Source: Syntrophaceae bacterium (GTDB lineage Bacteria > Desulfobacterota > Syntrophia > Syntrophales > Smithellaceae). From it: a stretch of 39,592 bases of DNA. Below the pieces are notes generated by a model. The model had not been told where the DNA came from. It saw only the letters and a list, made by a program, of their open reading frames with translations, and did no database searches. The translations under genes were made by a program, and so were the position numbers. Below are positions 29,461 through 39,592 of the stretch, piece after piece (the first letter of the stretch is position 1; every line of letters begins with the position of its first letter). The DNA lies in the NCBI GenBank assembly GCA_003141615.1, contig PLMV01000118.1, positions 1 to 39,592 of the forward strand. Direction: 5' to 3'.

Positions 29461-29497
29461 CTCATGTAAAATTGCTGATGAATTATTCTCCATGGCA

Positions 29498-29512
29498 GGG
29501 GAGTTATTCCCC
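29498..29512. promoter_or_regulatory. Candidate activator binding site upstream of sigma-54 promoter
   Basis: GGGGA-GTTAT-TCCCC is a perfect short inverted repeat about 95-110 bp upstream of the -24 element, a usual distance for enhancer-binding protein sites. The link to the nearby NtrC-type regulator is inference. Confidence 0.4.
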
Positions 29513-29606
29513 ACTTATTGTCTGAAAAAAGTGGCAAGCAATTTTAACAAAAAATATTTATCAATTATTTTAATAACATAGATATTATTGATTTATATTT
29601 CTTTGT

Positions 29607-29622
29607 TGGCATGTAAGTTGCT
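29607..29622 (+). promoter_or_regulatory. Sigma-54 promoter
   Basis: TGGCATGTAAGTTGCT fits the sigma-54 consensus TGGCACG-N4-TTGCT with one change. The invariant GG (29608-29609) and GC (29620-29621) are separated by exactly 10 nt. Transcription would start near 29632, about 13 nt before the GGAGG site of the gene at 29660. Confidence 0.8.
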
Positions 29623-29659
29623 ATTACATATTTCAGAAATGTTATGGAGGTGGTTCATA

Positions 29660-30040
29660 ATGAAAAAAGCGTTATGGTATGTAGTTGGCACGGTTTTTCT
29701 TTTGTCAACCTTAGCTTTTGCCGCTGATAGGGCCGCTTCCCCTGTTAAGGTTGATCCGGTTAAAACAAATATTGTCAAAGCCGCCAAAATGCATGCTACA
29801 GGAAAAGTTATAGAAATTTCTGATGCATCTATTAAGATTGAACGTACCGTAAAGGGTGCTGTGGAAACTATGGAGTTTGCTTTAGAAAAACCTGTAAAAA
29901 ATGTTATTGTAAACGATTCTGTAAAAATAGCATACATTGAAAATGATGGTAAATTAATAGCATCGAGAGTGGCCAAAGTCACTTTCAAGAAAAAAGAAAT
30001 TAAGCCGGCTGAGATAAAGCCTGCTTCAGGTAAAAAATAA
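29660..30040 (+). CDS. Small exported protein, DUF5666-like
   Basis: A 126-aa protein with a Sec signal peptide (MKKALWYVVGTVFLLSTLAFA, residues 1-21). ATG 29660 has GGAGGTGG upstream; a longer frame from 29588 runs through the promoter. The mature part ATGKVIEISDASIKIE ... VIVNDSVKIAYIENDGKLIASRVAKV has the strand pattern of DUF5666/OB-like periplasmic proteins, by eye. The tail is Lys-rich (KKKEIKPAEIKPASGKK). First gene after the sigma-54 promoter and upstream of the three Lys/Ala-rich genes, with which it shares an export signal and basic tail. Confidence 0.75.
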   Translation: MKKALWYVVGTVFLLSTLAFAADRAASPVKVDPVKTNIVKAAKMHATGKVIEISDASIKIERTVKGAVETMEFALEKPVKNVIVNDSVKIAYIENDGKLIASRVAKVTFKKKEIKPAEIKPASGKK

Positions 30041-30109
30041 TTAGTTAGAGTCCCTTAATTTAAAGGGTGGCATTAAAATAAAACAAAATTTAAGAAGGAG
30101 GATTTTAAG

Positions 30110-30343
30110 ATGAAGCGTTTAGGATTATTTGTTGTTGCATTGGTTTTCGCATTTTGCACCACCGTAATGGCGGCTGAGCCCGTAGCAGCTCCCGTAGCAG
30201 CTCCCGCCACAGAGAAGGCTGATGCCGCAAAAGTTGTTGTAAAGAAAGCCGCAAAGAAAGCCAAAAAGAAAGTAAAGAAAGCCGCGAAGAAAGCCGAAAA
30301 GAAAGTTGAAGAAGAAGCTCCTGCTGCTCCTGCAGCAAAATAA
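30110..30343 (+). CDS. Exported lysine/alanine-rich protein, copy 1 (77 aa)
   Basis: Signal peptide MKRLGLFVVALVFAFCTTVMA (residues 1-21), cleavage expected after AMA-type VMA, leaving about 56 residues made almost only of Ala, Lys, Pro, Val and Glu. The core KKAAKKAKKKVKKAAKKAEK at about 44-63 is a strongly basic helix-prone repeat like histone H1 tails, but the protein is exported, so a chromatin role is unlikely. The architecture recalls the E. coli acid-shock protein Asr (signal peptide plus disordered Lys/Ala-rich region) without evident homology. AAGGAGG precedes the ATG. Function unknown. Confidence 0.82.
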   Translation: MKRLGLFVVALVFAFCTTVMAAEPVAAPVAAPATEKADAAKVVVKKAAKKAKKKVKKAAKKAEKKVEEEAPAAPAAK

Positions 30344-30369
30344 GTTTGTAAAAACTTTATGTAATTATA

Positions 30370-30400
30370 AAGAAGGGACAGGTAAAGCCTGTCCCTTCTT
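30370..30400 (+). terminator. Terminator after Lys-rich copy 1
   Basis: Perfect 13-bp stem AAGAAGGGACAGG/CCTGTCCCTTCTT with a 5-nt loop, followed by TAATTT. Confidence 0.88.
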
Positions 30401-30453
30401 TAATTTAAAAAGTTAGTATTAAATAAAACAAAATTTAGAAGGAGGATTTTAAG

Positions 30454-30720
30454 ATGAAGCGTTTAGTATTGTTTGTTGTTGCATTGGTTTTCGCATTTTG
30501 CACCACCGTTATGGCGGTCGATAAGCCCGCTGTTGCTCCAACACAGGAACAGGCTGTAGCCGCCGAAAAGGCTACTGTTGTAAAGGATGAAGCGAAAGTA
30601 AAGGCTGATGCGAAGAAAGCCAAAGCCGCGAAGAAAGCCAAAAAGAAAGTAAAGAAAGCCGCAAAGAAAGCTGCCGAGAAGAAGGCTGATGAAGCCGCCG
30701 AAGCAGCTCCGGCAAAATAA
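30454..30720 (+). CDS. Exported lysine/alanine-rich protein, copy 2 (88 aa)
   Basis: The signal peptide MKRLVLFVVALVFAFCTTVMA is identical to copy 3. The mature part of about 67 residues begins VDKPAVAPTQEQAVAAEKA, continues with a mixed Lys/Asp/Glu segment, then the basic block KKAKAAKKAKKKVKKAAKKA, and ends in an acidic/Ala tail EAAEAAPAK. Low-complexity and probably disordered or a single helix. The ribosome binding site AAGGAGG is identical to its sister genes. The minus-strand ORF opposite it is a compositional shadow. Confidence 0.83.
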   Translation: MKRLVLFVVALVFAFCTTVMAVDKPAVAPTQEQAVAAEKATVVKDEAKVKADAKKAKAAKKAKKKVKKAAKKAAEKKADEAAEAAPAK

Positions 30721-30745
30721 GTTTGTAAAAACTTTATGTGGTTCT

Positions 30746-30778
30746 AAAGAAGGGACAGGTTTTGCCTGTCCCTTCTTT
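30746..30778 (+). terminator. Terminator after Lys-rich copy 2
   Basis: Perfect 14-bp stem AAAGAAGGGACAGG/CCTGTCCCTTCTTT with loop TTTTG. Confidence 0.88.
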
Positions 30779-30832
30779 AAATTAAAAAGTTAGTATTAAA
30801 ATAAAACAAAATTTAAGAAGGAGGATTTTAAG

Positions 30833-31108
30833 ATGAAGCGTTTAGTATTGTTTGTTGTTGCATTGGTTTTCGCATTTTGCACCACCGTAATGGCGGTCGA
30901 TAAAGCCGCTGTCGCTCCGACAAAGGAAGAGGCTGTAGCAGCCGAAAAGGCTGATGTTGTAAAGGATGAGGCGAAAGTAAAGGCTGATGCTAAGAAAGCC
31001 AAAGCCGCTAAGAAAGCCAAAAAGAAAGTAAAGAAAGCCGAAAAGAAAGCTGCCGATAAGAAGGCTGATGAAGCCGCCAAAGCAGCCGAAGAAGCTCCGG
31101 CAAAATAA
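30833..31108 (+). CDS. Exported lysine/alanine-rich protein, copy 3 (91 aa)
   Basis: Same signal peptide as copy 2, then a mature part of about 70 residues: VDKAAVAPTKEEAVAAEKA, a charged linker, the basic block KKAKAAKKAKKKVKKAEKKA, and the tail KADEAAKAAEEAPAK. It differs from copy 2 by scattered Ala/Glu/Lys changes and three extra residues near the C-terminus, so the family is evolving by repeat change while signal and flanks stay fixed. Function unknown; a periplasmic or surface polycation that binds acidic polymers is one possibility. Confidence 0.83.
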   Translation: MKRLVLFVVALVFAFCTTVMAVDKAAVAPTKEEAVAAEKADVVKDEAKVKADAKKAKAAKKAKKKVKKAEKKAADKKADEAAKAAEEAPAK

Positions 31109-31133
31109 GTTTGTAAAAACTTTATGTGGTTCT

Positions 31134-31169
31134 AAAGAAGGGACAGGTTTTACCTGTCCCTTCTTTTTT
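31134..31169 (+). terminator. Terminator after Lys-rich copy 3
   Basis: Perfect 14-bp stem AAAGAAGGGACAGG/CCTGTCCCTTCTTT with loop TTTTA and a continuing T run to 31169. Confidence 0.92.
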
Positions 31170-31203
31170 GTTTACTGCTAGTTAATTATTCTTATTTTTG
31201 ATA

Positions 31204-31216: not shown

Positions 31217-32755
31217 ATGTTTAAAAAAATCTTCGACAAGATAAATATTTACAATGATAATCTGACAGTTCGTGTAAGACTGGTTGTGCTGACTGTTGCT
31301 GGTCTTGCTTTAACTATGGCCATTTGGGGCTTTGTTCAGCTTACCGCTCTGGATAGGATATTGGTCGATCAACAGGCAAAAAGGCTTGAAGGTGTGGCCG
31401 ATACAATCAGCACCTTTTATCAATTTTTCCCTACAAAACGGGGACTTCATGCCCTTGATTCAGCTCTTAAAGACTTCATTCAAACCGATGTGCGTTTGGC
31501 AAGAATTGATATTTTTGACACCAGTCATGGCAACGTTGATTACGTTACCGGCGCCAGCCGGGTCCAATATGAATGGCCTGATAATATTGTCTTTGCCGCC
31601 AGCGCAAAAAACAAGGTGCGTTATGTTAAAATAGAAACGGAAAGCGGTCCAGCGCTGGGTTTGCTTTATCCTGCTTCAGTAGAAATAAAAGGTTCGCACG
31701 TCGTCGTGGGCATTATTGGTTTTTCGCGCGCGAATGCCGAAATTATGAATAGCGCCCAACAATTGCTGATTTTCAGCAGTATCGGATTATTACTGTTCAT
31801 TCTTTTGATATTAGGATTAAGTTATGGCTGGATAATCGGCAGACCGCTGAAGCTGATCATTCAGACAATTGACGAATTTCAGAAAGGACAATATATAAAT
31901 AGAATTCCTATAGTTCACCGGGATGAATGGGGACAGATATCTAAGCACTTTAACATGATGGCTGATGAAATTCAGGATGTAATTACCAGGAATCTCGATC
32001 TGAACAGGCATCTGGAAGACCGTGTCCGCGAAGAAACGCTCAAGGTTGTTCAACTGCAAAAACAAGTTGCCGATCTGAAACAATTGACTGCTTTAGGGCA
32101 CTTAACGGCTAATCTCGCCCATGATCTGGGTACGCCGCTCCATTCCATTGGAGGTTTGGCTAACCTTCTTTTGGAAAGAGAAGGCTGGCCGCCGGATGTG
32201 GCCCATAAATTAAAATTGATTGTCCAACAAACCCAGCGGCTGGATAACGTCATTCAGAATGTAAGAAAAGCCACACGCCTTCCGGAGCCTCATTTTGAAG
32301 TGTTGACTATCCAGCAAATTTTAAGTGAGACACTGCCGCTTGTCGAATCCTTCATGCAAAAAAATAGAGTAGAAATGAGCGTAAATATTGACGACGGAAT
32401 CAAACCTTTATATGTCGATCGTTATCGTATTCAGACCGCACTGATGAATATAATTCAGAATGCTCTGGAAGCAATGCCGCAGGGAGGAAAAATAACTATA
32501 TCGGTCCAAACAATTTCCCAAAATGGTTTGGTAGCAGTGACTATCAATGATACAGGCACGGGAATGCCGCCCGATATGATTGAGAAAGCGTGTGAACCAT
32601 TCTTTAGCACAAGACAAAACGAAGGCCTGCGCGGACTGGGTCTGGCTATTGTACGCGACATAGTTAAAACTCACGGTGGTAAAATGGAAATAAAAAGCTC
32701 TCTGGGTCAGGGAACTTCTATTATTCTTTACTTGCCGGTATTCAAGGATAATTAA
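31217..32755 (+). CDS. Membrane sensor histidine kinase
   Basis: A 512-aa kinase. Transmembrane helices at about 21-43 and 183-207 enclose a periplasmic sensor region of about 140 residues. Then come HAMP (about 208-262), a coiled segment, the phospho-acceptor His302 in LTANLAHDLGTPLHSIGG, and the ATPase domain with N box NIIQNALEAM (411-420), DTGTGM (445-450) and GLRGLGLAIV (470-479). It resembles the NtrB/AtoS-type kinases that pair with sigma-54 activators. The likely partner lies convergent, 17 bp beyond its stop. No ribosome binding site precedes the ATG. Confidence 0.9.
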   Translation: MFKKIFDKINIYNDNLTVRVRLVVLTVAGLALTMAIWGFVQLTALDRILVDQQAKRLEGVADTISTFYQFFPTKRGLHALDSALKDFIQTDVRLARIDIFDTSHGNVDYVTGASRVQYEWPDNIVFAASAKNKVRYVKIETESGPALGLLYPASVEIKGSHVVVGIIGFSRANAEIMNSAQQLLIFSSIGLLLFILLILGLSYGWIIGRPLKLIIQTIDEFQKGQYINRIPIVHRDEWGQISKHFNMMADEIQDVITRNLDLNRHLEDRVREETLKVVQLQKQVADLKQLTALGHLTANLAHDLGTPLHSIGGLANLLLEREGWPPDVAHKLKLIVQQTQRLDNVIQNVRKATRLPEPHFEVLTIQQILSETLPLVESFMQKNRVEMSVNIDDGIKPLYVDRYRIQTALMNIIQNALEAMPQGGKITISVQTISQNGLVAVTINDTGTGMPPDMIEKACEPFFSTRQNEGLRGLGLAIVRDIVKTHGGKMEIKSSLGQGTSIILYLPVFKDN

Positions 32756-32772: not shown

Positions 32773-34116
32773 TCAATCCGCGGAAAGTTTTTCGTCCAAT
32801 AAGCCATAACGGCGAATCTTCAGGCGTAATGTTTTTCGGTCAATATCCAAAAGCTGTGCGGTTTTGGTTTGATTCCAGGAAGTCTCCTTCAGCGTTTGTA
32901 ATATCTTATCTCTTTCCGCTGTCTCTAACGGAGACATATTGGACAAGGCGGCGTCTTCCTTATTTTCTTTTTGTTGTTGAAAATGCTCCGGCAGATTTTC
33001 CGGGAGAACAACCGCGAAAGGTGAAAGCAATAAAGTTTGTTGCAGAACATTTTCCATCTCTCGTACGTTGCCCGGCCAGTTATATGCTATGAGTAACTCC
33101 ATTGCTTCTAACGAAATGCGCACATTTGGATAACCAAATTTTTTCAGTAATGATTCAATGAGCAACGGAATATCATCTTTATGCTCTCTCAAAGGCGGGA
33201 CACGCAAACGCACAATAAATCTGTATAACAAATCCAGACGAAAGCGGCCCAGGCTTACCTCTTCATCAATATTTTTGTTGGCTGCCGCCACTACCCTTAC
33301 AGTTACATTGTGAACATCATGGCTGCCAATTCTTCTTACTTCACCATTTTGCATAAACCGCAAAAACTTGCCTTGCAGAGCTGTTGACATTTCCGTGATT
33401 TCATCGAGAAAAACTGTTCCGCCTTCTGCTGATTCCAACAATCCGGCATGCTGATGATCAGCTCCAGTAAAGGATCCTTTCTCATACCCGAAGAGTTCAG
33501 ACTCCAATAAATTATCGGGAATAGCTCCACAATGAACTACAACAAAAGGTTTATCACGGCGCAAAGACATATTGTGTAAAGAACGGGCGGTCAATTCTTT
33601 TCCCGTTCCACTTTCACCTTCAATTAAAACACTGGCTGACGCATCGGCAATGCGGGCAATTTGTTTGTAGAAATCAACCATCATTGCCGACGAACCAATC
33701 AATTTCGGTTCTTCAGTTGTTTCCGGTTGCAATTTCATGCGCCGTTCACGCAGTTCCCTAACTTCCAATACTTTTTTTACAATAGTCCGGCATTCTTCCG
33801 GTGAAAAAGGTTTACTTATATAATCCCAGGCGCCCAGACTTATTGCCTCCATCGTTGTTTCCAGAGAACCATAAGCGGTCATAAGAATAACCGGCAAGTT
33901 CGGCCATTTTTTGTGCACTTCATCTAAAAATTGCAAACCATCCATTTCTGGCATGCGAATATCGGACATAAGCAGATCGTACCGCGAAAGATCTTGCTTC
34001 AAAGCTTCCTTGGCTGATGTATAGGCTTTTACTTCATAGCCATCAAGCGAAAGAGCTTCTTGTAAAAACTCGCAGGCGACCTCGTCGTCATCAATCACTA
34101 AAATGTGGGCTTTCAT
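32773..34116 (-). CDS. NtrC-family sigma-54-dependent response regulator
   Basis: A 447-aa enhancer-binding protein. Receiver domain with phospho-acceptor Asp52, Thr80 and Lys102; AAA+ domain with Walker A GESGTGKE (167-174), the sigma-54 contact loop GSFTGA (214-219, a Ser variant of GAFTGA) and Walker [10 protein letters not shown] (232-240); C-terminal Fis-type helix-turn-helix ([21 protein letters not shown]). It activates sigma-54 RNA polymerase after phosphorylation. Convergent with the sensor kinase gene. The only clear sigma-54 promoter in the window is at 29607, a plausible target. Confidence 0.93.
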
Positions 34117-34167: not shown

Positions 34168-34623
34168 TTAAGGCAGGGCAGCAATAAAAAATCCCGAGAG
34201 CTTTTTGCTGCCTAGAGCATCTTGAGCAATGATGTCGCACTGAATTCTTTTTTCACCGTTTTCTACATACTTTTTGACTACCTTGCCGCTAACAGTGATT
34301 GTTGCTCTGTCTTTTGTGTTTTCCATATCATCCAAATCTGCCGGTTCTGTCATACTCAAAAAACGGGCATTAAATTTTCTTAAATATTTGTTTTCGATCC
34401 AGGAAGTGATGGCTTCGCCGGCAATACCCATAATTAACATGCCATGGGCAATAACATTTTTCATGCCGATCATTTTAATGAAGGTTTCATCATGATGAAG
34501 AGGATTAAAATCACCCGAAGCTCCGGCATAACGGACTAAATGTGTTCTGGTAATGGGCGCGGAAGTGTAAACGGGCATTTTGTTCCCAACTTCAATATCA
34601 TCATAATTTACAGCCATATTCAT
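34168..34623 (-). CDS. MaoC-like dehydratase, C-terminal-type subunit
   Basis: A 151-aa hot-dog-fold protein with the hydratase 2 motif YAGASGDFNPLHHDETF, giving the catalytic Asp-His pair in GDFNPLH. The family hydrates trans-2-enoyl-CoA to (3R)-hydroxyacyl-CoA or the reverse. Starts 4 nt after the stop of the partner gene; an internal ATG at 34617 has a slightly better spaced AGGAAG. With the upstream gene it forms a split two-subunit hydratase like mycobacterial HadAB or ChsH1-ChsH2, by analogy. Confidence 0.87.
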   Translation of the reverse strand: MNMAVNYDDIEVGNKMPVYTSAPITRTHLVRYAGASGDFNPLHHDETFIKMIGMKNVIAHGMLIMGIAGEAITSWIENKYLRKFNARFLSMTEPADLDDMENTKDRATITVSGKVVKKYVENGEKRIQCDIIAQDALGSKKLSGFFIAALP

Positions 34624-34627
34624 CTTC

Positions 34628-35092
34628 CTATCTTTCCAGCAATCTTGTCTGGGATTTGAGTACCAGTTCGCCCCGCTGATTTATCAATTCCGTTTCCAGG
34701 ACAGTAACCTCGACACTCTTGTTTCCGGTCCCCTTTTTTAACATATCGATAACTTTCATTTTACGGGTAATAACATCGCCAGCGTAAATGCTGCCAAAAT
34801 ATTCATACTCTTCTTCCCTATGCAGAAGCCTGTTTAAATCAATCCCCAAAATTTTAACTGTGCCCATCAGACCGCCACCAGTCCAAAAAAAGGTGCTTGT
34901 TGGAAAGGTGGGAGGAATCGGTATCCCTTGATAGCCTGCTTTTTTTGCAGCTTCTTCATCGTAGTAAATGGGATTGATTTGTTCCTTATTCTCTTTTTGA
35001 GAAACGGCTATGGCAAACTCAGTAATTTTATCTTTTTCTACTGTAAAAGTGTAGGCAGGAAATTCCATGCCCAACTTTGACTTATCCGCCAT
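34628..35092 (-). CDS. MaoC-like dehydratase, N-terminal-type subunit
   Basis: A 154-aa protein of the N-terminal MaoC/FAS1 dehydratase domain type: GMEFPAYTFTVEKDKITEFAIAV, then NPIYYDEEAAKKAGYQGIPIPPTFP. Such subunits lack the Asp-His pair and shape the acyl-binding tunnel for the catalytic partner, encoded 4 nt downstream. GGAGG precedes ATG 35092. Divergent from the MFS transporter gene. Confidence 0.87.
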   Translation of the reverse strand: MADKSKLGMEFPAYTFTVEKDKITEFAIAVSQKENKEQINPIYYDEEAAKKAGYQGIPIPPTFPTSTFFWTGGGLMGTVKILGIDLNRLLHREEEYEYFGSIYAGDVITRKMKVIDMLKKGTGNKSVEVTVLETELINQRGELVLKSQTRLLER

Positions 35093-36921: not shown

Positions 36922-37308
36922 TTACGCCTCGACCTCGGCCTCAACGTTCTGGAGCACTTCAGCCCCGGTCTGGTTTACGACTTTGAGTTCGACCTTGGCG
37001 CGGCCAGCCTGCACGTCAGCCACGGTACCCTGGACTGAAATCGTGTCTTCCATCATAACCGGAGCACTGAATCGGCACCTTATTTTTTTCAATTTGCCGG
37101 GGTCGCCAGCCCAGTCGGTCACGGTTTTCGCAGTAAAGGCCAGTGTGCATAATCCCTGGAGAATTGCGCCGCCCAGCCCCACCATCTTTCCAAACTCGGG
37201 ATCGATATGTATCGGGTTATAATCGCCCGATGCGCCGGCGTAGTATATCGCCCGGTATTTATCGACTTTCTCACTTCCGGTGAATGTTTGTCCTTTTTCA
37301 ACTGCCAT
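36922..37308 (-). CDS. MaoC-like dehydratase, C-terminal-type subunit (second pair)
   Basis: A 128-aa hot-dog protein with the catalytic motif YYAGASGDYNPIHIDPEF and GAILQGLCTLAFTAKTV. It is the catalytic half of a second split enoyl-CoA hydratase pair, with its partner 10 nt upstream. GGAG lies 7 nt before ATG 37308. It is last in a minus-strand run of two acyl-CoA dehydrogenases and the two MaoC subunits. Confidence 0.88.
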   Translation of the reverse strand: MAVEKGQTFTGSEKVDKYRAIYYAGASGDYNPIHIDPEFGKMVGLGGAILQGLCTLAFTAKTVTDWAGDPGKLKKIRCRFSAPVMMEDTISVQGTVADVQAGRAKVELKVVNQTGAEVLQNVEAEVEA

Positions 37309-37318
37309 AGCGCTTCTC

Positions 37319-37756
37319 CTATTTCCGTACTACAAAGGTATAAGTTCCACGGCTCACGTCTTTGCCGTGCTGGTTTTTTGAATTGAGCTCGAGGGAAATG
37401 ACATCCAGCTTTTCCTTGTTCTTGATGTCACTAATCTTCGCGGAGGTGGTGATGGAATCGCCTGCTTTGACCACTTCAAAGAATTCCAGTTCCTGCTCGC
37501 CGTGCACAAGCATGGCCATGTTCAGGTTCAGCTCTTTGTCCATGAACACCGGTTCGATCAGGTGCGCGCCAAATACAACCGAGAATGTGGGGGGTGCGAT
37601 AATCGTGCCGTATTTAGATTTTTTGGCGAAATCGTCATCAAGATAATGGGGATCGGGATTCTTAATCGCTTTAGCGTATTCCTTAATTTTTTCCTTTCCC
37701 ACTTCATAGGTATACGTCGGATATGTTTTGCCGATGAATTTTGTATCTATGGCCAT
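37319..37756 (-). CDS. MaoC-like dehydratase, N-terminal-type subunit (second pair)
   Basis: A 145-aa protein with KTYPTYTYEVGKEKIKEYA, DPHYLDDDFAKKSKYGTI and IAPPTFSVVFGAH, the N-terminal MaoC/FAS1-type dehydratase signature, without the Asp-His motif. GAGGAG precedes ATG 37756. Partner of the gene 10 nt downstream. It is similar in plan to the pair at 34168-35092, so the two pairs are probably paralogues. Confidence 0.88.
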   Translation of the reverse strand: MAIDTKFIGKTYPTYTYEVGKEKIKEYAKAIKNPDPHYLDDDFAKKSKYGTIIAPPTFSVVFGAHLIEPVFMDKELNLNMAMLVHGEQELEFFEVVKAGDSITTSAKISDIKNKEKLDVISLELNSKNQHGKDVSRGTYTFVVRK

Positions 37757-37817: not shown

Positions 37818-38990
37818 TTATGCCGCGTATTTCCGGATCAGGTCTTTCGCAATCAGCACACGCTGTATTTCCGAAGTTCCCTCGCCGATTTCGCCCAGCT
37901 TCGCGTCGCGGTAGAGGCGCTCCACCGGAAACTCCTTGATGTAGCCGTAACCGCCAAATACCTGTACCGCCATGCTGGATATCTGCGTGGCGGCCTCGGA
38001 AGCCCACACCTTTGCAACGGACGCCAGCACGGCGGACTCAGGGTTCTTCGTCTCCTTTGCCCAGGAGGCCTGGTAGATGAGGAGCCTCGCCACATCGGAC
38101 ATGATCATCATATCGGCGAGTTTGAAGGAGACTTCCTGAAAACGGTTGATCGGCTTCCCGAAGGCATTTCGTTCCTTGGAATACTTGTTCGCGTGCTGAA
38201 GGCATTTGGCAGCTATTCCCAGGCAGACGGTCGCCATGCCGATTCTGCCGTATTCAAGGGTCTGCATTGCCTGGATGAAGCCATTGCCAACTTGGCCGAG
38301 AACTGCGCTTTCCGGCACTTCGCAATCCTCAAGGATCAGCTCGGCCGTGGGGGAGCCGCGGAAGCCCATTTTGTCGAAGGGTTTGCTCACTGAAAATCCC
38401 TTTGTTCCCTTATCGACGAGGAAGCATGTGACTCCTGCGCCGGGGCCTTTCTCCTTGTCGTTGTAGGCAAAGACGAGAGCAGCGTCTGCTATGGTCGCGT
38501 TGGTGATGAAGGTCTTGGTTCCGTTGAGAATCCACTTGTCGCCCTTCTTGACTGCTGTTGTCTTAATTGAAGCCGCATCAGAGCCGGCTCCAGGCTCGGT
38601 AAGGCCGAAGCAGCCGATGAGCTCACCCTTGATTATGCCGGGAAGATATTTTTTCTTCTGCGCTTCGGTGCCGAACATTTTCAACGGCATGCCGAAAAGT
38701 CCGCTGGAGGCGCCACAGGATAAGAATGTGGAGGCGCATGCAGCGGCCACTTCTTCCCCCGCTATTGCCTGGCTGATTAAATCTAGATTCGTGCCGCCGT
38801 AGGCTTCATCGTGCCCCATGCCAAGAAAGCCAATGCCGGCCATCATTTTGATGTTCTCTTTAATCAGCTTTTCCACTTCTTTATGCTCAGCTTTATCTAG
38901 GATCTGGGCGCGCGGCTCTATTTCTTTGGTGCAAAACTTCGAAAAGTTTTCTTTTATTGATAATTGTTCCGGTGTCAAATCATAATTCAT
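37818..38990 (-). CDS. Acyl-CoA dehydrogenase
   Basis: FAD enzyme of 390 aa that oxidises acyl-CoA to trans-2-enoyl-CoA. Conserved blocks: CFGLTEPGAGSDAASIKTTA (FAD/substrate loop), NGTKTFITNA, FGKPINRFQ, and the C-terminal GGYGYIKEFPVERLYRDAK then IGEGTSEIQR. The catalytic Glu sits at residue 370 in IGEGT, the usual position. AGGAG precedes ATG 38990. Followed by the MaoC pair and preceded by another acyl-CoA dehydrogenase, so one operon for a beta-oxidation-type pathway is likely; electrons would go to an ETF not seen here. Confidence 0.94.
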   Translation of the reverse strand: MNYDLTPEQLSIKENFSKFCTKEIEPRAQILDKAEHKEVEKLIKENIKMMAGIGFLGMGHDEAYGGTNLDLISQAIAGEEVAAACASTFLSCGASSGLFGMPLKMFGTEAQKKKYLPGIIKGELIGCFGLTEPGAGSDAASIKTTAVKKGDKWILNGTKTFITNATIADAALVFAYNDKEKGPGAGVTCFLVDKGTKGFSVSKPFDKMGFRGSPTAELILEDCEVPESAVLGQVGNGFIQAMQTLEYGRIGMATVCLGIAAKCLQHANKYSKERNAFGKPINRFQEVSFKLADMMIMSDVARLLIYQASWAKETKNPESAVLASVAKVWASEAATQISSMAVQVFGGYGYIKEFPVERLYRDAKLGEIGEGTSEIQRVLIAKDLIRKYAA

Positions 38991-39040
38991 AATATTATTC
39001 TCCTGTCTTATGTCTGGTTATCCTGTATCCGGGCACGAAA

Positions 39041-39592
39041 TTAGAAGTAGCTAAGGATACGGGATATGATAAACCGCTGCATCTCGGAGGTCCCGCCGCC
39101 GATCTGCCCCAGCTTCGCATCCCTGAGGAATCGCTCGATCGGGTACTCATGTATGTAGCCGTAACCGCCGAATATCTGAACAGCATCGCTTGCGGCCTTC
39201 ATGCCCCAGTCGCCCACGATCGCTTTCGCGATGGAAGTATGCATATGGTTGAGAGGTTTGCCTGAATCCTTATCATGAGCAACGCGGTAAACGGTCATTT
39301 TCGCGGCCTCTTGTATAATTTTGAGGTCCGCCAGCTTGTGCTGTATCGCCTGGAACGAGTTGATCGGCTTGCCGAACTGCACCCGATCCTGAGAATACTT
39401 TGTGCATGCCTCTATCGCGAACTGCATACCGCCGACGAAGGGAGACAAAAGAGCGCTCCTGTCCCAAGAGAGAGTCTCGACAGTGTATTCAAATCCTTTG
39501 CCGACCTCGCCCAGCAGGTTTTCCTCCGGGACTTCGCAGTTTTCCAGAAATACCTCTGAGGTGGCGGATGCCCGAACGCCCATCTTGTGGAA
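39041..39592 (-). CDS. Acyl-CoA dehydrogenase, partial (window end)
   Basis: The C-terminal 183 codons of an acyl-CoA dehydrogenase; the 5' part lies beyond 39592. It has KMGVRASATSEVFLENCEVP, YSQDRVQFGKPINSFQAIQ and GGYGYIHEYPIERFLRDAK. The usual catalytic Glu position in the IGEGT block is Gly here (IGGGTSEMQR, codon at 39095-39097). Aspartate stands in SWDRSALL (codon 39461-39463), where isovaleryl-CoA and long-chain enzymes carry their relocated Glu. First known gene of the minus-strand operon, 50 nt ahead of the other dehydrogenase. Confidence 0.92.
   Translation of the reverse strand, partial: FHKMGVRASATSEVFLENCEVPEENLLGEVGKGFEYTVETLSWDRSALLSPFVGGMQFAIEACTKYSQDRVQFGKPINSFQAIQHKLADLKIIQEAAKMTVYRVAHDKDSGKPLNHMHTSIAKAIVGDWGMKAASDAVQIFGGYGYIHEYPIERFLRDAKLGQIGGGTSEMQRFIISRILSYF

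Follow-up and report, generated by a model that had tools for sequence, protein, structure and literature searches.

The window is the whole stretch of DNA that we analysed, 39,592 nucleotides in length. On its forward strand, a sigma-54 element (TGGCATGTAAGTTGCT, −24/−12; 29607-29622) that matches 11 of 12 consensus positions is followed by the gene for D56 (29660-30040), an exported, DUF5666-like OB-fold protein with a basic C-terminal tail (identified from the list of open reading frames, profiles, and a structure model). The next three genes on this strand encode exported Lys/Ala proteins of 77, 88, and 91 amino acids (copy 1, 30110-30343; copy 2, 30454-30720; copy 3, 30833-31108), as seen from the ORF list, the signal peptides, and an alignment. 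These ORFs, which span 30110-31108, confirm the three tandem genes with exported Lys/Ala products (mature parts of 56-70 amino acids) that the first-pass annotation had described. It had placed the bounds of the feature at 29607 and 31169. We find that the feature extends upstream to 29476, where a pair of operator palindromes begins, and downstream to 34116, by way of genes for a kinase and a regulator. The first (31217-32755, + strand) encodes a membrane histidine kinase with a PDC/Cache-like periplasmic sensor, HAMP, HisKA, and HATPase domains (assigned from profiles, a model, and conservation). The second (32773-34116, − strand), which is convergent with the kinase gene, encodes an NtrC-type sigma-54-dependent response regulator with a receiver, an AAA+ domain, and a Fis-type HTH (profiles and conservation). 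The earlier reading of the regulation was right about the sigma-54 promoter but stopped before these two genes, which are conserved partners throughout the order.

Beyond the regulator gene lie two MaoC-like hydratase gene pairs, together with acyl-CoA dehydrogenase genes (34168-35092, 36922-37756, and 37818-39583, all on the − strand; annotated from sequence). The first MaoC-like pair is co-directional with the regulator gene and lies upstream of it, and it is linked to the regulator in family f1 only.

Each of the three Lys/Ala proteins begins with MKRL(G/V)LFVVALVFAFCTTVMA and has a predicted Sec-type signal peptide of 21 residues that ends in VMA, a plausible cleavage site. The mature parts of copies 1, 2, and 3 (56, 67, and 70 amino acids) consist almost entirely of Ala, Lys, Glu, Asp, Val, and Pro. 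The copies had been said to have near-identical leaders, and this holds: the signal-peptide DNA is 95-98% identical among them, and the 5' leaders, which carry the ribosome-binding site AAGGAGGA, are near-identical. The terminators had also been called near-identical, which is true only in part. The hairpins that lie 3' of copies 1, 2, and 3 (30368-30402, 30745-30779, and 31134-31170, + strand; z of −7.3, −7.3, and −6.3) are alike, and stem-loops 1 and 2 are perfect, but only the third has a U-tract beyond the stem, and terminator scoring called only this one an intrinsic terminator. Nor are the products pure polycations, as had been thought: they are polyampholytes, and their net charge is about +8 to +10. 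Against Pfam and NCBIfam, the Lys/Ala proteins gave only sub-threshold low-complexity matches, and an Rfam search of the window found no RNA family.

Of 119 related genomes, 56 had Lys/Ala relatives in a protein search, which is an undercount, because operator-led loci (see below) reveal more Lys/Ala genes. Across the mature parts of 56 of these proteins, the composition is 33.6% Ala, 30.4% Lys, 10.6% Glu, 6.9% Pro, 6.7% Asp, and 6.5% Val, and these six amino acids account for 95% of residues. There are 1129 Lys versus 5 Arg; for comparison, Lys and Arg make up 5.2% and 6.5% of residues in long ORFs of the same loci. The net charge ranges from +3 to +14, and 46 of the 56 have no aromatic, His, or Cys residues. 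These genes are truly coding, because variation in their signal peptides sits mainly at third codon positions (per-site divergence of 0.39 at position 3, as compared to 0.12 at position 1 and 0.10 at position 2; n = 28 homologues). Also, a conserved hairpin lies 3' of 47 of the 56 genes (1 of 56 if shuffled). A composition this rich in Ala and Lys implies that the chains are intrinsically disordered, with some tendency to form helices but without a strong hydrophobic face. Thus, the Lys/Ala proteins are probably disordered, net-positive polyampholytes, and membrane-lytic activity is unlikely because a strong hydrophobic face is missing. In these exported disordered proteins, selection clearly keeps the composition (Lys, almost no Arg, net positive, hardly any aromatics) and not the sequence.

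The sigma-54 promoter that had been proposed ahead of the array is conserved. If we require at least 10 of 12 consensus positions and a distance of at most 700 nt, then a site lies upstream of 42 of 55 Lys/Ala homologues, as compared to 12 of 364 other long ORFs from the same loci and 25 of 1100 Markov shuffles (≥10/12), so it is not due to chance. The Lys/Ala genes without a site include copies 2 and 3 of the window and both of their counterparts in the sister genome. A count of dyads in 38 non-redundant promoter regions singled out one motif by a wide margin, TGGGGAATNATTCCCCA. It mostly occurs as a tandem pair, with centres at about −123 and −102 from the TGG of the sigma-54 site, 21-22 bp or two helical turns apart. 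In the window, the pair is TGATGAATTATTCTCCA (29476-29492) and AGGGGAGTTATTCCCCA (29497-29513), with centres 21 bp apart, and both are predicted regulator sites. Of 45 promoters, 42 have at least one palindrome (≥12/16), as compared to 16 of 900 shuffles.

As the motif was derived from these same promoters, a fair test is a genome-wide scan. The composite operator-operator-promoter pattern has 37 matches in 36 of the 119 genomes, and a reversed control has none. All 30 of the matches with readable downstream genes precede D56 and/or Lys/Ala genes, and another five coincide with the coordinates of D56 or Lys/Ala genes, so that the pattern leads to these genes in 35 of 35 checkable cases (35 of the 37 matches were judged; one in G039, at a contig end, and one in G116 were left out). 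The kinase is present in all 36 genomes, and Lys/Ala genes that are remote from the kinase have an operator pair and a sigma-54 site of their own. From the linkage and the co-distribution, we infer that the linked response regulator binds the operator palindromes. Matches to the pattern in two genomes of the phylum from outside the order (G313 and G267) have no palindrome of at least 13 matches and were taken as chance.

Overall, this appears, as far as genome comparison can indicate, to be a dedicated two-component/sigma-54 regulon with the Lys/Ala proteins and D56 as its outputs. The absence of the operator and the sigma-54 site at the Lys/Ala-like genes of loci L016, L037, L062, L063, and L069 counts against this reading. 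One of these, L016, encodes an exported Lys/Ala relative of 140 amino acids with LEA-like repeats (KDKVKGVEDKAKDKAKGAEDKA), and its genome (G034) lacks the kinase, a match to D56, and the operator, which is consistent with the regulon idea.

Other Lys/Ala-type genes were seen at the margins of the system. The sister genome G010 has extra copies (L037, L038, and L069), largely without operators, that resemble an 83-amino-acid ORF with KKRHKAEKKAA repeats near the end of contig C13 of G000, the genome of the window (L053); within the ~200 nt that are present on the contig upstream of L053, there is no sigma-54 site. Another contig of G000 (C155, 4923 bases; L054) has a second D56 gene (2553-2966, − strand) and a solo Lys/Ala gene (2059-2322, + strand), each with operators whose sequences are near-identical to those of a family f17 genome (G094). 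Because of the near-identity of its operator to that of family f17, C155 may be a contaminant of the window's assembly (reported contamination 5.92%). Finally, a genome from another order of the phylum (G269; L168) encodes an exported Lys/Ala-rich protein of 91 amino acids, without the palindrome, so this type of composition may have arisen elsewhere too; this gene also counts against the reading as a dedicated regulon.

Comparison in silico gives the gene structure, conservation, and linkage of this system, along with its operator/promoter architecture and the content of the regulon. The conserved unit comprises the operator pair, the sigma-54 promoter, the OB-fold protein, the Lys/Ala protein, the histidine kinase, and the convergent NtrC-type regulator. 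In most loci, the order is the sigma-54 site, D56, and then one Lys/Ala gene, which supports the earlier proposal of a co-transcribed layout with an exported DUF5666-like protein. The block of D56, Lys/Ala, kinase, and regulator genes is kept in families in which the outer neighbours (HI0933-like, cupin, MaoC-like, and lpd) are rearranged or absent. Among the 119 relatives, most of the genomes compared being metagenome assemblies, the kinase sensor is found in 74 and D56 in 75 (contigs were scanned for D56 with the tighter alignment A4, as A3 was too diverse). Both are found in 71 of the 78 genomes with either (P = 1e-23, Fisher exact test, uncorrected for shared ancestry), and in 66 of these 71 genomes they are at most 3 kb apart. 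The exceptions, which count against the regulon reading, are four genomes with D56 and no kinase and three with the kinase and no D56. In a complete genome (G084, 3,179,300 bases), the kinase gene adjoins a Lys/Ala gene. Across a sample of the phylum, the 14 genomes with the kinase sensor all belong to this order, and none of the roughly 379 sampled from outside it has the sensor; the limitation to one order rests on this sample of genomes.

The array of three had seemed to be the essence of the locus, but most relatives have one Lys/Ala gene at the corresponding place, and genomes of family f16 have two, about 680 nt apart, with one promoter each. Among the loci that we read, the three-copy array is common only to the window and the sister genome bog_1110 (G010, locus L086). 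A lack of related tandem arrays in sister genomes had been named as a refutation of the first-pass reading, and bog_1110, which is the closest sister genome, has an equal triple array, so the reading stands up to this check. On the sequence evidence, what is usually a single Lys/Ala gene has here expanded locally into three. The first-pass annotation had suggested a recent duplication or gene conversion, and of this only the duplication is borne out as proposed. The triplication is older than the split of the window's species from its sister, because their versions of copy 3 share 99% identity in the mature part. Given this, and as identity is 93% between copies 2 and 3 within the window and 91% between the orthologous copies 2 of the two species, gene conversion has been partial at most. 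Copy 1 has diverged fast, with 62% identity between the two species.

The explanation that we consider probable, with some reservation, is that a two-component system of the envelope is dedicated to this operon as its output and that the Lys/Ala proteins are envelope protectants. The kinase would sense a periplasmic or membrane signal with its PDC/Cache-type domain and, as is expected from these protein families, would phosphorylate the neighbouring NtrC-type regulator. Regulator dimers would then bind the two palindromes and activate the sigma-54 promoter. The transcript would give rise to D56 and to the disordered Lys/Ala proteins, presumably in large amounts given their strong ribosome-binding sites, and the signal peptides should direct both to export. 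The conserved hairpin after most Lys/Ala genes suggests that these outputs are made in excess over the downstream kinase, which is probably the case for both the Lys/Ala proteins and D56. In the periplasm, the net-positive polyampholytes could shield, stabilise, or reorganise the anionic surfaces of the envelope; alternatively, they could keep unstable client proteins soluble, as reported for Asr. We propose this protective role by analogy with Asr and ZraPSR. D56, with its basic tail, might be a partner or an anchor of the Lys/Ala proteins, and the number of Lys/Ala genes (three here, usually one, with dispersed copies elsewhere) might set the dose.

More tentatively, and at slightly less than even chances, we propose that this is a new envelope stress system of the Syntrophales, with a sensor from outside Pfam and an NtrC-type regulator with a predicted regulon that consists solely of disordered, nearly Arg-free Lys/Ala polyampholytes and their OB-fold partner with its basic tail, which would protect or reorganise the envelope by bulk electrostatic effects. 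The sensor matches no Pfam family, and a PDB sequence search with its profile found no relative. Its structure model (pLDDT 89) is PDC/Cache-like and is closest to WalK (Z = 13.8, rmsd 2.6, 132 residues), followed by CusS (Z = 11.1), DcuS, and CitA. The order is made up of syntrophic bacteria, most of them uncultured. Little is known about the stress biology of syntrophic fatty-acid degraders, because they are difficult to culture and live near the thermodynamic limit. Our search of the literature for an exported Lys/Ala system, for DUF5666, and for expression in Smithella or Syntrophus found nothing relevant among open-licence papers, which is weak evidence of absence. What began as an oddity in the sequence turns out to be a conserved regulon whose operator is sharply defined, so that both the signal and the function are directly testable.

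Another explanation, which we consider unlikely, is that the Lys/Ala proteins act outside the cell, as polymers resembling histone H1 tails that condense extracellular DNA or other polyanions and aid cell-cell aggregation in syntrophic consortia. Their composition is indeed like that of H1 tails and they have export signals, the system is restricted to a syntrophic order (among the sampled genomes), and OB folds frequently bind nucleic acids or polysaccharides. However, about 17% of residues are acidic, which would lower the affinity for DNA, Arg is lacking, and the operon has no gene for export across the outer membrane and no sign of secretion past the periplasm.

The fold of D56 raises a different possibility, namely a response to metals, in which D56 would carry metal in the periplasm in the manner of CusF, the kinase would sense metal as CusS or ZraS does, and the Lys/Ala proteins would be accessory. 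D56 is modelled as a five-stranded OB barrel (pLDDT of about 90 or more over most of residues 41-106). CusF is the best Foldseek match of this model (E = 2.2e-3), domains of SilF and SilB match it as well, CusS is among the structural neighbours of the sensor, and ZraPSR has a circuit of the same type. Nevertheless, what D56 shares with CusF and SilF is a small exported five-stranded OB fold, as predicted by the model, and OB folds of the single-stranded-DNA-binding (SSB) type score as well as CusF against the model (VIA-align). Of the four Cu(I)/Ag(I) ligand positions of CusF (His, Trp, Met, and Met; reference sequence verified against PDB entries), three are not kept: in the weak profile alignment (probability 21%), only one Met remains, and His, Trp, and the first Met are gone. 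Furthermore, D56 has a basic tail, the operon encodes no efflux pump, and His, Cys, and Met are almost absent from the Lys/Ala tails. We therefore downgraded the reading of D56 as a CusF-type metallochaperone to unlikely, and a metal response as a whole seems improbable.

The relationship of D56 to DUF5666 (PF18914) is also weak. The protein is exported and has a basic tail, as the first-pass annotation stated, but the family match amounts to 15 of 27 homologues at E of up to 1, with a best E of 0.0016, and the protein of the window has none; a PDB sequence search with the D56 profile found no relative either. In families f12 and f5 (L085, L121, and L083), D56 has a leader of the Lys/Ala type, an A/P-rich linker, and a basic or Lys-rich tail. 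From their sequences, the forms with a Lys-rich tail (L085 and L121) look like natural fusions, as if the two outputs had been joined, which speaks for the preferred reading.

Finally, it is very improbable that the Lys/Ala tails are low-complexity drift without a specific function and that only the OB-fold protein matters: the mature parts do differ in length and sequence, and copy 1 has diverged fast between the two sister species, but solo Lys/Ala genes keep an operator pair and a sigma-54 site of their own, the signal peptides are under coding constraint, and the composition and the net positive charge hold in 56 of 56 proteins.

The preferred reading, of a dedicated envelope two-component system with protective outputs, has two precedents, and its type of circuit is known; its outputs, operator, and sensor are not filed. 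The acid-shock protein Asr of Escherichia coli (NCBIfam NF033636) is reported to be a disordered chaperone of the periplasm and to support the integrity of the outer membrane (PMC10746267). Like the Lys/Ala proteins, Asr is a small exported protein with a signal peptide and a repetitive, low-complexity, Lys/Ala-rich basic mature part. This upholds the earlier view of Asr as the nearest analogue in architecture, even though the NF033636 profile gave just 22.5 bits for copy 1, no listed match for copy 2, and 14.0 bits for copy 3 (cut-off of 50). Unlike asr, the genes of the window are under a sigma-54 operator system and are linked to an OB-fold protein and a dedicated kinase-regulator pair. In this respect they resemble ZraPSR of enterobacteria, a two-component system that acts through sigma-54, controls a very small regulon, and has a small periplasmic protein among its outputs (PMC7657598); the window likewise has a kinase and an NtrC-type sigma-54 regulator linked to a sigma-54-driven gene for a small exported protein. 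The differences from ZraPSR are that the outputs in the window are an OB-fold protein and Lys/Ala polyampholytes, that the regulator gene is convergent instead of being in an operon with the kinase, and that the operator is another one. The kinase and the regulator also score far short of the equivalog cut-offs for ZraS and ZraR (151.6 versus 479 bits and 358.2 versus 760 bits), and profile scans found no homologue of ZraP among the proteins of the operon. Since these curated cut-offs are missed and ZraP has no counterpart, the system of the window is a member of neither group, but it would work like ZraPSR in its regulation and like Asr in its output.
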